NCBI RefSeq assembly: GCF_027580225.2
Contig: NC_073354.2
Location: 32,590,501-32,654,500 of the forward strand
Length of the DNA stretch: 64,000 bases
Origin: Misgurnus anguillicaudatus
Taxonomy: Eukaryota; Chordata; Actinopteri; Cypriniformes; Cobitidae
Direction of reading: 5' to 3'
This document shows positions 57,715 through 64,000 of the stretch, in pieces. The first letter of the stretch is position 1. Each line of letters opens with the position of its first letter. The position numbers and the translations under genes are program-made. The notes below the pieces were generated by a model, which did not search any database, was not told where the DNA came from, and saw nothing but the letters and a program-made list of their open reading frames with translations.

Positions 57715-58703
57715 TTAACACTTGGGCACATTGCAGTATTCCCATTTATCCTTAGGGTCTGTGGTGTAACACCAGGGCGCTATCCCATTATCAGGGTTCC
57801 TGCAGTAGTTCTCTTCAAGGTCACTGGAAATGAATAATGTCTTAATGTTTATTAATTCAGACTCTATGTTTCCATGACATGATCCAAAAAATGGCATCAT
57901 TGTTTAGGTTAAATGTTTTGATTAATATTTTTTTGCAATTAAGTTAATTTGATCAACCCTCAAGCTCAGTTCATTACAATGTCTCTCACCTGCACAGATA
58001 GTTCTCTGGAGTTCTGTCATGCTTGTGAGGAGTTTGAGATGCCCACTTCTGGCAAGTTTTTCCCGATTCTGTCACAGAAATATTGCCCCTGTAGTAGGTT
58101 TCTCTTCCAGTAGTACAATTGAATTCTGGTATAATTGTGGGTGGTTTAGTTGCTACAAGAGAAAAAGGACCTATAACTGATGAACTGAATATTCATTATG
58201 GGAGATTTTCTGACTGACAGGAGCAAAGCTTACTGCATCGAGGAATAGAGCAATATTCCCAGCGTTTGGATGGATTTGTTGTATAGCACCAGGGCCTAGG
58301 CTTTCTTGTAGGGTTCCTACAATAGTTCTCTTCCAAGTTCTTTCCATGTAATCTACATACAATAAAAACAATTTGTGTGCCTGTACTAAATCTTTAAATA
58401 ATATCTCATTCATGCTTAATGAAGATCTTTGCAGACTGGGTCCGAAATTCCACCCCCCCAAACTCCACTTATGTTGTGTGCGTGCGTGCGTGCGTGTGTG
58501 TGAGACGAAATTGTAGGATCATGAATATGAAAATGCACATACAAAACTTTTGGACTACATTATGCAAAGATCTTTTTCTCACGTTGAAGGGATGTAGTCA
58601 TGTTTGTGGGGTTTCTGAGAGTCCCAGCGTTGACAGGTGTATCCACTCTCAGTGATGGAGATCTTGCCTCTGTAGTCTTCTCCAATACAGTGCATACAAT
58701 CTT
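57715..58703 (-). CDS. Gene 4, cassette 5 (last) and stop codon
   Basis: Exons 58583-58703 ([20 protein letters not shown]), 58234-58352 ([16 protein letters not shown]), 57990-58152 ([19 protein letters not shown]; inter-kringle Cys in NYLC) and 57715-57823 ([16 protein letters not shown], ending NVPKC and TAA). All six kringle cysteines per domain are kept. Confidence 0.88.
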
Positions 58704-61700: not shown

Positions 61701-64000
61701 TCCAGTGCAGTGAATACAATCTTCTGCAGCAAGAGCAGATTAAAGTGTTTAATTTCACTTTTAATGTTGTCTACAGAGGTATCATGACCATGTTTTCAGA
61801 TTGTAGTATTTGTTGTGTAGAGTCTCCCGACTCCTTTAATACAGACCAGGTCTAGTTTTATCTCCACAATTGGGCACATTGCAGTATTCCCACTCGGTCT
61901 GGGGGTCTGTGGTGTAACACCAGGGTGCTCTCTCATTATCAGGATTCCTGCAGTAATTCTCGTCAAGACCTCTGAAATGAAGGTACGTGACACAAAATAA
62001 CAACTTTCCCAACAATGTGAGGAAGAGTAAATGATGAAATTTCTTGCAGACATTCCTATATTATAAATACTTTAACTCAATCTCTCTTGATGCTTACTTG
62101 CATGGGTAGTTCTTTGAAGTTCTGTCATGCTTGTGAGGAGTTTGAGATGCCCATTTCTGGCAAGTTTTTCCTGTTTTGGTCGTAGAAATATTGCCCCTGT
62201 AAAAGCTTCCATCTCCAGTAGTACAAATGAGCTCTGGTACAATAGCGGGCGATTCAGTTGAGCATCGAGGAATAGAGCAGAATTCCCAACGTATGAATGG
62301 ATCTGTTGTATAGCACCAGGGCCTAGGGGATCCATCAGGGTTCCTACAATAGTTCTCATCCAAGTGCTTCTGATGTATGCTACAAAAACACACATTTGGT
62401 GTACTTTTACTAATTGTGCAATATCTTATTACCAAGTGAGTAAGTGTGATTCTTACATTGAAAGGACGTAATCATGTTTTTGTGGTGTCTGAGAGTCCCA
62501 GCGTTGGCAGGTGTATCCACTCTCAGTGGTGGAGATCTTGCCTCTGTAGTCTTCTCCATTGCATTGCATGCAATCTTCTGCAGCTGTTTAAGAGCGTGAC
62601 ATGACATATAGTTGAGTTTTTTTTCTGTCAGTTTTTTCCTCAAGATCATCATATAATCCTACTAGAGATCTCAACTAGATTTGATTTGCTCGATTTTGGG
62701 GGTGGGCATAGTGATGATTTGTTTTTCTGTGATGAACATTGCAATATGAGATTTCCTGTATTACTTCAACAAAGAAATTGAAAAGCTCAGTTTGGGTGGC
62801 TCAGTGGATAACACTGTGGCCTCACAGCAGGAAAGTCCCTGATTCAAGCCCGGCTAGGTCAGGTGGCCTTTCTGTGTGAAGTTTTTCATGTCAATGTGGG
62901 TTCACTCTGGGTACTCTGGTTTCCTCCCACAATTCCAAAAACATGCAACTTAGGTGAACTGAAGATACTAAATTGCCCTTTCCCAACCTGTGTATGGATT
63001 AACTTGTGTATGGGTAAGCAAGTTCTCGCTGTGAATATAACTATAGATGCTGGAATGGCGTAGAATAAATAAAAAAAGAAAGCTCTGTTTGAGAGGATTT
63101 AACGTCTGTCTTGCATTTCTTGTACATTATAGCTCACAGATTTGGCTTAGAGTAAAAACAGTACATAGCCTTCATAGCAGTAGAGAAAATAACTTGATTA
63201 GATTAGAAAAAGTTAGAAAAAATAGACTATGGTCTCTTAAAGATTCTGTACATTGCTTGCAAAAATGACGTAACCCATCTGTAGTTTTTGTAATACATTT
63301 CATTTATACAATGACTACTTTGACTACTTCGGTACAGACCAGGTCTAGGTTGATCTTCACATCTGGATACATTGCAGTATTCCCCAGGGGTCTTAGGGTC
63401 TGTGGTGTAACACCAGGGCCTTTCGCTACCATCAGGGTTTCTGCAGTAATTCCATTTGAGACCTCTGTAATTGAGTGTATCGTAATGTTAAAGGAAGAGT
63501 TTACCCAAAACTTGATTATTCATTAATTCACATGTTTCTAGTTTAGCACACTGTATAAACCGAGCAAGCAAAAACCATCATTTCACTGTATAGGTAATAT
63601 GTAGACCGGAAATAGTCAGACTGTGAGTAACCCCACTTATAGTTAAAATAACCTTGAATTTGGTTGCATGCTGTTTTTGCCAAAATCACGTTGATGCTCA
63701 CTTGCATGGGTAGTTCTCTGGAGTTTGGTCATGCACGTGAGGAGATTGAGATGGCCATTTCTGGCAAGTTTTCCCTGATTCGGTCACAGAAATTATGCCT
63801 CTGTAGGAGCGTCCATCTTCAGTAGCACATCTGTGCTCTCGTACGAATGTGGGCAGATCAGTCCCTGAAAAAGATGAGCAGTAGTTGATTAACTAAATAT
63901 TAGACAGAGATTTCAGACTGACAGTAGTAAGCTTACTGCATTGAGGAATAGAGCAGAATTCCCAGCGTTTGGACGGATTGGTTGTATAGCACCAGGGTCT
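57715..64000 (-). CDS. Gene 4: multi-kringle secreted protein, 5' end outside the window
   Basis: Nineteen kringle exons (one of them a fusion of two) run from the right edge to a stop at 57715-57717. They encode at least four and a half K2-K3 cassettes: nine complete kringles and part of a tenth. All exon phases agree (1, 2, 1, 2), so the frame stays open. The stop falls directly after the last kringle cysteine (NVPKC), and the downstream donor position is also lost. No protease exon is found in the 9.5 kb down to gene 3. The product is therefore a kringle-only array, apolipoprotein(a)-like in architecture but made of K2-K3 pairs. The signal peptide and further cassettes should lie beyond 64000. 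Ligands are unknown; lysine-type binding is expected to vary because the acidic pair in NPDxD positions and the Trp of RWEYC differ among copies. Confidence 0.88.
58953..60669 (-). CDS. Gene 4, cassette 4
   Basis: Exons 60549-60669 ([15 protein letters not shown]), 60357-60475 ([16 protein letters not shown]), 59499-59649 ([19 protein letters not shown]; 12 nt shorter than the standard 163) and 58953-59077. In the last exon the hallmark PWCYT reads PFCLT, replacing a Trp of the kringle core, so the fold or ligand site may be altered. The intron between exons 3 and 2 holds the 59705-60118 MITE. Confidence 0.86.
59705..60118. mobile_element. MITE with GGGGCGTGCACACCAAAGC ends
   Basis: GGGGGCGTGCACACCAAAGC on the left and GCTTTGGTGTGTCCTGCCCC on the right are inverted ends. 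Non-coding. Related to the repeat at 41995-42240. Confidence 0.7.
60981..61723 (-). CDS. Gene 4, cassette 3
   Basis: Exons 61603-61723 ([20 protein letters not shown]), 61407-61525 ([16 protein letters not shown]; the conserved NYCRNP reads NFCRNP), 61170-61332 ([19 protein letters not shown]) and 60981-61102 ([16 protein letters not shown]). The second exon ends in T rather than A before its donor; the fused exon of cassette 2 carries the same T. Confidence 0.88.
61847..62577 (-). CDS. Gene 4, cassette 2, with an exactly lost intron
   Basis: Exons 62457-62577 ([20 protein letters not shown]), 62098-62379 (fused) and 61847-61971 ([16 protein letters not shown]). The fused exon runs from [20 protein letters not shown] through FCSIPRC straight into [18 protein letters not shown] and on to NYPCK. 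Its length, 282 nt, is exactly the sum of the separate exons in other cassettes (119+163). Confidence 0.92.
62786..63085 (+). mobile_element. tRNA-derived SINE (DANA-like)
   Basis: A box-A-like TGGCTCAGTGG (62797-62807) and a box-B-like GATTCAAGCCC (62841-62851) are followed by the body GGTTTCCTCCCACA...ACATGCAACTTAGGTGAACT and an A-rich tail (about 63062-63083). This order matches the DANA SINE family of zebrafish relatives. Inserted in a gene 4 intron. Confidence 0.75.
63340..64000 (-). CDS. Gene 4, cassette 1 of the window (partial)
   Basis: Exon 63937-64000 (cut by the edge) holds the end of a K2-like kringle ([18 protein letters not shown]). Exons 63702-63864 ([24 protein letters not shown]) and 63340-63464 form a K3-like kringle. 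In the last exon the RWEYC motif reads PGEYC, so the groove Trp is Gly. The donor is followed by in-frame sense codons, unlike most sister exons. Confidence 0.85.

Follow-up and report, generated by a model that had tools for sequence, protein, structure and literature searches.

Gene 4 and its K2-K3 cassettes

The window is the whole 64,000-nucleotide stretch of DNA analysed here. At its far end, on the minus strand (57715-64000), lies gene 4, which is gene G of a larger cluster. For this gene, profile matches and splice models agree on nine complete kringles of plasminogen type plus a partial tenth, the content claimed in an earlier note on this DNA. The profile matches follow the order K2b (clipped at the window end), K3a, K3b and then four full K2a-K2b-K3a-K3b cassettes. 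The 18 exons in the window splice to a single 811-codon frame in which the only stop is the terminal one, and the array is more than chance would produce. All four complete window cassettes were submitted to Pfam, and each was found to contain the Kringle family. Scans of the window against Rfam (gathering scores) and for tRNAs gave no match, and neither did a search for relatives in plasmids and viral contigs.

The exons, all on the minus strand, can be followed inward from the window end. The K2b exon of cassette G2 is cut there (63937-64000; the whole exon reaches 64055 on the window scale), and its K2a exon lies outside, at 64134-64254 on the same scale. G2 continues with a 163-nt K3a exon carrying the cysteine of PENYPC (63702-63864) and a 125-nt K3b exon (63340-63464). 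In G3, a 121-nt K2a exon with CMQC (62457-62577) is followed by a fused K2b+K3a exon of 282 nt (119+163; 62098-62379), from which the intron is missing exactly, and by a 125-nt K3b exon (61847-61971). G4 comprises K2a with CIHC (61603-61723), K2b (61407-61525), K3a with the cysteine of PEDFQC (61170-61332) and a 122-nt K3b (60981-61102). G5 comprises K2a, again with CIHC (60549-60669), K2b (60357-60475), a 151-nt K3a with a shorter linker (59499-59649) and K3b (58953-59077). In G6, K2a with CMHC (58583-58703), K2b (58234-58352) and K3a with the cysteine of PENYLC (57990-58152) precede the last exon (57715-57823), a K3b in which the stop comes right after the final kringle cysteine, without a protease. 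An AATAAA lies 223 nt downstream of this exon.

The earlier note described the array as repeating cassettes of 121+119+163+125 nt. These are the most frequent lengths for each exon, but none of the four complete window cassettes has exactly that set, the deviations being the 282-nt fusion, the 122-nt K3b, the 151-nt K3a and the last K3b of 109 nt including the stop. All of these length variants preserve the frame. The splice models also agree with that note in placing phase 1 at both cassette borders, and the motifs are as it described: CMHC or a variant with both cysteines is retained in all four complete K2 halves in the window, and the cysteine of NYPCK-type motifs in five of five K3 halves.

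The plasminogen cluster

Extension past position 64000 on the chromosome assembly brings gene 4 to 12 kringles in six cassettes. The full model of gene G (~57.7-67.0 kb on the window scale) joins a signal exon to six K2-K3 cassettes in 24 exons, encoding 1052 aa with a single stop after the last K3. Whole plasminogen is defined by PAN, K1-K5 and a serine protease; gene G has a signal and 12 kringles, with no protease. Its G1 cassette shows a 27-nt in-frame deletion in K2a beside the donor. Gene H, positioned head to head with gene G, is a second 12-kringle gene (25 exons, 1067 aa, one terminal stop).

The cluster spans ~230 kb and consists of a canonical plasminogen gene (A), which carries PAN, K1-K5 and the serine protease, and eight derived genes (B-I). 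The derived genes hold 29 K2-K3 cassettes, two to six per gene, and two lone K3s. K3 invariably comes after K2 in genes B, C, E, F, G and H, the lone K3s being confined to D and I. Protease is absent from genes B, F, G and H, while genes C, D and E encode a plasmin-like protease with an open frame and His/Asp/Ser motifs. Models of 9 to 25 exons for genes B, C, D, E, F, G and H contain no internal stop. In gene I, the protease is broken, with exons P1 and P6 truncated and no P4 located, and the lone K3 is without an acceptor.

Three further members fall in the window, all on the minus strand. Gene 3 (cluster gene F; 41795-48163) has its signal exon at 48115-48163, two K2-K3 cassettes and no protease, and ends by readthrough into a stop after loss of the K3b donor. 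Gene 2 (cluster gene E; 23747-35577) encodes 616 aa from a signal exon (35529-35577), two K2-K3 cassettes and a protease in six exons (29658-29772 to 23747-23908) with an open frame; the best match of this protease is to plasmin (1.6e-100), with 1e-52 for the family after it. The 5' part of gene 1 (cluster gene D; 13540-20381) includes the signal exon (20333-20381), a K2 in which the bond cysteine is lost (CMYS) and K3a. Gene 1 is not a truncated gene: its K3b is found ~870 bases beyond the left edge of the window, and the gene continues to a protease.

The terminal K3b exons of genes B, F, G and H have a stop or a lost donor, and internal cassettes retain the donor. GT was found at 27 of 27 internal K3b donors (26 at the homologous site, H2 elsewhere), a count that is partly built in because GT was a condition of the exon models. 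These donors are of a GTCTGT type, weak relative to the usual consensus, and the K2a acceptor is poor in C2, C3, E2 and I4. The ends of 11 automatically found exons were re-set by hand. Kringle matches were inspected on contigs C18, C1, C8, C12 and C15, with 150 of 180 candidates scored. The count of 60 kringles in the cluster omits a K2b-like piece without splice sites (C18:32499412) and a lone K3b-like piece in gene I (C18:32699456).

Duplicates in the cluster differ in age. C1 and C2 are 97.8% identical over 1.2 kb including introns, H1 and H2 92.4% over 0.8 kb, and B1 and B2 86.4% over 1.0 kb. The earlier proposal that the cassette is a unit able to multiply is borne out by these duplicates.

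Lineage, cysteines and binding pockets of the kringles

When one gene-4 cassette was compared with solved structures, the human plasminogen chain 4a5t was matched (E 1.2e-148 over the whole sequence) with K2-K3 as the best stretch, and alignment to plasminogen K2-K3 gave 233 bits over 171 residues. When 18 window kringles were scored against nine human kringles, with the gene-1 K3 half cut off by the window left out, eight of nine K2-type halves scored best with plasminogen K2 and one with HGF K2. Eight of nine K3-type halves scored best with plasminogen K3 (one tied with K4), and the remaining one preferred K4 by a single point.

Lineage was assessed further with trees. In a tree of single kringles that included the fish's own K1-K5, 30 fish K2 and human K2 form one side of a branch (100/99), and fish K4 and human K4 group together (100/97), apart from the K3 halves. 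The 32 fish K3 and human K3 group at a weak 67/77; this tree has few columns and its bootstrap was unsettled. A smaller first tree rejected none of six placements, including K4 as the partner of K3 (AU p 0.315 to 0.623). As candidate parents of the K3 halves, K4 or K1/K5 were considered also in the larger set, which separates K4 and leaves K3 at 67/77. The K4 build of primate apo(a) was not found, as the K2 halves join human K2 and the K4s stand apart from the K3 halves (67/77), although the smaller tree left K3-K4 unrejected. In a tree of pairs (35 rows), 31 plasminogen-type pairs (29 cassettes, the fish's own plasminogen and human plasminogen) separate from four HGF/MST1 pairs (100/99), which rules out HGF or MST1 as parent of the cassettes, and the fish cassettes together with the fish's own plasminogen split from human (98/92). 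Because tree support for K3 is only 67/77, its identity leans also on exon lengths, cysteines and pairing. The identification of the gene-4 halves as plasminogen K2 and K3, which the earlier note had proposed, is supported by these sequence comparisons, with tree support high for K2 and for the pairs and weak for K3.

All 60 kringles of the cluster keep the six kringle cysteines. The extra cysteines of gene-4 K2 and K3 align with human plasminogen residues 169 and 297, Cys169 of K2 and Cys297 of K3 being the partners of plasminogen's K2-K3 disulphide; the earlier identification of these residues as bond partners agrees with this alignment. The bond cysteine is kept in 27 of 29 K2 and in all 31 K3, and never occupies the position that belongs to the other half. 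Both cysteines are present in 27 of 29 cassettes, among them the full 12 of genes G and H. Gene D has lost the K2 bond cysteine twice. The natural reading of this alignment is disulphide-locked pairs, and the K2-K3 pairs are very probably joined by an inter-kringle bond of the plasminogen type. Gene G has 84 cysteines in its 12 kringles, seven in each and every one with a positional partner, so that a search of these kringles for a spare cysteine found none. Some kringles of genes D, E and I have an odd cysteine number or a lost partner.

In genes B, F, G and H, which have no protease, none of the 34 kringles has a complete lysine pocket, and in genes C, D, E and I the pocket is complete in 7 of 26. 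The residue rule applied is strict: human K1, K2 and K4 pass it and K3 and K5 do not, residue 69 being the sole failure in K5. If the acid pair alone were required, one of the 34 (G3 K3) would count. The K2 acid pair is kept in none of the 29 derived K2, of which 27 lost the second acid and two (G1 and H6) the first. Pooled dN/dS is 0.44 for K2 and 0.46 for K3. K2 pocket codons evolve more slowly than the remainder (0.34 vs 0.45). In K3, the loop 54-58 on the pocket rim is the fastest five-codon stretch (dN 0.66, dN/dS 1.06, as descriptive figures), and codons outside the pocket set give 0.39. The loss of pocket residues could reflect mere decay.

Origin and possible function of the arrays

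In anatomy and origin, gene 4 almost certainly represents a secreted multi-kringle protein whose source is the K2-K3 pair in the plasminogen gene of the same fish. Loss of PAN, K1, K4 and K5 from plasminogen copies left the signal exon joined directly to K2, and K3 joined directly to the protease or a stop. Since all borders are phase 1, a four-exon K2-K3 cassette can be gained or lost in frame, and cassettes then multiplied to two to six per gene. In four genes, which are without a protease, the last K3 exon acquired a stop or lost its donor. As each pair would be held by the inter-kringle disulphide, the 12-kringle protein is predicted to form six rigid double kringles with short linkers. 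Having neither a protease nor a spare cysteine nor a complete lysine pocket, it would be expected to serve as a multivalent binder or decoy. The likeliest mode is competition with those K2-K3 relatives that carry a protease, for some ligand that is not C-terminal lysine. This decoy role is tentative and, judged from sequence, somewhat doubtful; the full account of K2-K3 origin, locked pairs and a non-enzymatic multivalent plasminogen derivative is likely.

Apo(a), encoded by LPA in Old World primates, consists of multiplied plasminogen K4 beside plasminogen and has no working protease; an unpaired cysteine bonds apoB, and at least one kringle has a full lysine pocket. The earlier description of gene 4 as apolipoprotein(a)-like holds for build and history, its tandem kringles being plasminogen-derived and the gene adjoining plasminogen. 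Likeness in function is not supported: the array has no free cysteine, no complete lysine pocket and no protease. The K2-K3 pair rather than K4 was multiplied, and K5 and a protease remnant are absent. The apo(a)-like protein of hedgehog has K3 repeats without a protease and so shares tandem plasminogen K3-type kringles, but fish K3 is preceded by K2 outside genes D and I. Plasminogen and angiostatin (K1-K3) contain the same pair with both bond cysteines, whereas the derived genes lack the other plasminogen kringles and PAN, repeat the pair and only in some cases keep the protease. HGF and HGF-like protein (MST1) also have a K2-K3 pair, with both cysteines in human HGF and two fish loci, but only one in each of three 10-kb stretches inspected in this genome, and on a separate branch.

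These comparisons bear on the rival readings. A functional fish apo(a), carried on an LDL-like particle through lysine pockets and a free cysteine and hindering fibrin breakdown, would fit protease-less tandem kringles next to plasminogen; it is improbable given the fully partnered cysteines of gene G, the absence of complete pockets from genes B, F, G and H, and the location of odd-cysteine kringles in genes D, E and I rather than gene 4. Slightly less improbable is that the genes are functionless relics of tandem duplication in decay, as the broken protease and acceptor-less K3 of gene I, the cysteine losses of gene D and the fast K3 loop might suggest. However, the open frames of genes B-H, the six cysteines in every kringle and pooled dN/dS below 0.5 argue against decay.

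A decoy role against microbes, in which the array would capture the proteins with which bacteria or parasites attach to the kringles of host plasminogen, is unlikely, though less so than the foregoing. Known bacterial receptors bind plasminogen K2, and the fast K3 loop is as expected with changing ligands, but the K2 contact known for them is made through the lysine pocket, whose acid pair no derived K2 has kept intact; the K2 pocket is not fast, and relaxed constraint accounts equally for the K3 loop. A wrong cassette number through misassembly is very improbable overall. The likeness of C1 and C2 means that the copy number in gene C could be wrong. In gene 4, however, the K2 and K3 halves of the five window cassettes differ by 14-32% in DNA, intron lengths differ and one cassette intron is lost, so duplication of a single sequence in assembly does not account for them. 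The contig extends for 40 Mb, and the 234 kb that were read contain no N. An artefact in gene 4 is therefore unlikely.

Apo(a) counts among the major heritable risk factors for heart disease in humans, and its normal role is not settled. The fish cluster may, with considerable uncertainty, represent a third, independent apo(a)-like route, in which a disulphide-locked K2-K3 module was freed and multiplied within and across eight genes beside plasminogen, giving plasmin-like zymogens whose kringles are all of K2-K3 type, 12-kringle non-enzymatic proteins and a K3 pocket turned from lysine to changing ligands. A similar array has been built in a fish lineage from a part of plasminogen other than apo(a)'s kringle, and the cluster displays stepwise array growth and enzyme loss, with pairs with and without protease, two to six pairs per gene, and both recent and old duplicates. 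Its 27 two-cysteine pairs and two pairs missing one cysteine form a natural test set for the role of the K2-K3 bond, and the cluster allows one to ask what selects multi-kringle proteins when lysine binding and lipoprotein linkage seem absent.

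Gene G and the plasminogen-type cluster

At window positions 57715-64000, minus strand, profile hits and splice models reveal nine complete kringles plus a partial tenth, alternating K2-like and K3-like, just as the earlier note had read them in gene G (its gene 4); the 18 exons in the window form a single frame whose sole stop is terminal. The whole gene is larger. The chromosome around the window (C18:32590501-32654500, C18 being NC_073354.2, in a 1.12-Gb genome) was annotated by the same procedure over C18:32480501-32714500 (234 kb). Starting from a signal exon at C18:32657474-32657522, the complete model has this exon and six cassettes (each the four exons K2a-K2b-K3a-K3b, one K2-K3 pair), with 24 exons, 1052 aa, 12 kringles and 85 cysteines, one of them in the signal peptide. 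Gene H, also of six cassettes (25 exons, 1067 aa, 85 cysteines), runs in the opposite direction from C18:32661221. The two signal exons lie head to head, 3.7 kb apart (C18:32657475-32661268), and these 12-kringle genes could possibly share a promoter.

Between genes F and G (window 53136-57219) lie three blocks of 82 to 300 bases, each repeated 2141-2142 bases further on with 99-100% identity; this is a recent tandem doubling of ~2.14 kb, and both copies contain a 141-bp tandem array. Further tandem arrays, with 128-bp and 43-bp units, occupy window 5758-6393, 6550-6827 and 9466-9761; two 43-bp arrays appear by eye to be mutually reverse-complementary.

The cluster genes are lettered A to I from left to right. 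Gene A is an ordinary plasminogen with a signal exon, PAN pieces (identified by eye), K1 to K5 (named by order) and six protease exons; in the single-kringle tree its K1, K4 and K5 group with, or lie close to, the human kringles of the same name. The eight derived genes hold 29 cassettes and two lone K3s, a total of 60 kringles when two stray pieces are left out, and among the matches listed all kringle matches on C18 lie inside the annotated 234 kb. Gene E (window 23747-35577, 616 aa) is a plasminogen-like zymogen with two K2-K3 pairs and an open-frame plasmin-like protease, lacking PAN, K1, K4 and K5. Genes C (four cassettes and protease, 967 aa) and D (C18:32534079-32610881; K2K3, lone K3, K2K3, K2K3 and protease, 889 aa) resemble it with more kringles, and the gene D protease has VTARG where the compared relatives have VTSWG. 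Gene I (C18:32694097-32712414) has the kringle order of gene D and a broken protease, with the first and last protease exons cut and one not found; its lone K3 has lost its acceptor and a stray K3b-like piece lies at C18:32699456. Gene I is probably decaying. Genes B (three cassettes), F (two), G and H lack a protease.

Origin and growth of the cassettes

In a tree of kringle pairs, the 29 cassettes and the fish and human plasminogen pairs are separated from HGF/MST1-type pairs with branch supports of 100/99, the opposite side comprising human HGF, two fish HGF-like loci and one MST1-like locus (labels of these three fish loci are our own reading of their kringles). The fish cassettes and fish plasminogen in turn split from human plasminogen (98/92). 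The single-kringle tree gives 100/99 for K2 and 67/77 for K3, and the gene E protease matches plasmin at 1.6e-100, the second-ranked family scoring 1e-52. When six placements were tested on a smaller 27-row tree that lacked the fish's own plasminogen, none was rejected. Together, the pair and kringle trees and the plasmin match indicate that the cassettes derive from plasminogen K2-K3 in the fish lineage; the proposed K2-K3 origin is well supported at the level of sequence.

The exact 121/119/163/125 make-up was hand-counted in 13 of 29 cassettes, a figure that leaves out the last cassettes B3, F2, G6 and H6 (letter for gene, number for cassette) and the fused G3; the ends of 11 exons were re-set by hand. 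In G3 (window 62098-62379) the K2b-K3a intron is exactly lost, leaving 282 = 119+163 nt; K2b and K3a are separate exons in the other 28 derived cassettes. Since the signal exon, K2a start, K3b end and protease start are all phase 1, whole cassettes can be gained or lost.

Cassette duplications differ in age: identity is 97.8% for C1/C2 (over 1.2 kb, introns included), 92.4% for H1/H2 (0.8 kb), 86.4% for B1/B2 (1.0 kb) and 85.5% for D1/D3 (0.9 kb). Other, older cassettes group across genes. These are the protease-adjacent C4, D4, E2 and I4 with E1 and I3 (98/97), the pair G5 and H3 (95/93), and G4, F2, H1 and H2 (98/96). Because the six cassettes of gene G are dispersed in the tree that yields these groups, the gene reached its length long ago and not in a single recent burst.

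Extra cysteines and the lysine pocket

Two extra cysteines align with human plasminogen residues 169 and 297 (chain 4a5t, positions hand-counted), the residues of its K2-K3 bond. They are kept in 27/29 K2 and 31/31 K3, no derived kringle carries a cysteine at the other half's place, and G and H have both in each of their 12 pairs. The suggestion of disulphide-locked double kringles is therefore well supported at the sequence level. Gene D has lost the K2 cysteine in two of its three K2 (D1, CMYS; D3, CMHS) and keeps the K3 cysteine in all four K3, one of them a lone K3; D1 K2 has an additional cysteine at another position. E1 K3 and I1 K3 have one additional cysteine each, and D2 and I2, the lone K3s, lack a K2 partner. 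Gene D is the cluster's best candidate for free cysteines or new bonds, and would be the best place to look for them.

The pocket was scored as an acid pair, Trp, an aromatic and Arg/Lys at the K4 positions of the alignment. Fish plasminogen K1 to K5 and human K1, K2 and K4 pass; human K3 fails and human K5 misses by residue 69 alone, which shows how strict the rule is. By this rule a full pocket is found in 7/26 kringles of C, D, E and I (the K3 of C1-C4 and I1-I3) and in 0/34 of B, F, G and H, counts that are not independent because the kringles share kinship. G3 K3 has the acids and Glu instead of Arg, and none of the 29 derived K2 has the acid pair. By descriptive pooled counts, dN/dS is 0.44 for K2 and 0.46 for K3 overall. 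In K3, the 5-codon stretch with the highest dN is loop 54-58 (0.66; dN/dS 1.06), K3 codons outside the pocket set give a dN/dS of 0.39, and K2 is fastest at 34-42, its pocket codons being slower than the remainder (dN/dS 0.34 versus 0.45). These rates are compatible with both relaxation and changing ligands.

Loss of the protease and the apo(a) comparison

Protease exons were sought with profiles from gene E's own exons (E 1e-3). A tblastn search of the window with human plasmin (E up to 1) recovered protease exons in gene E only, the sole other hit being a weak one (E 0.28) at 19582 on the opposite strand. In internal cassettes, K3b ends in GT at the homologous site in 26/27 (H2 uses another GT), a count partly built in because exon models required GT. 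In B, G and H the final K3b has an in-frame stop upstream of the homologous donor site; F2 has TT instead of GT and reads through into a stop ~ten bases on. As the K3b donor in cluster genes is GTCTGT-like and often followed by a stop ~ten bases later, losing the donor is enough to terminate the protein at the cassette concerned, as seen in F.

The apo(a)-like label attached to gene G fits its build and history, tandem kringles derived from plasminogen, and nothing beyond them. We infer that the gene G product may act as a multivalent, non-enzymatic protein that partners the K2-K3 plasmins or serves as their decoy.
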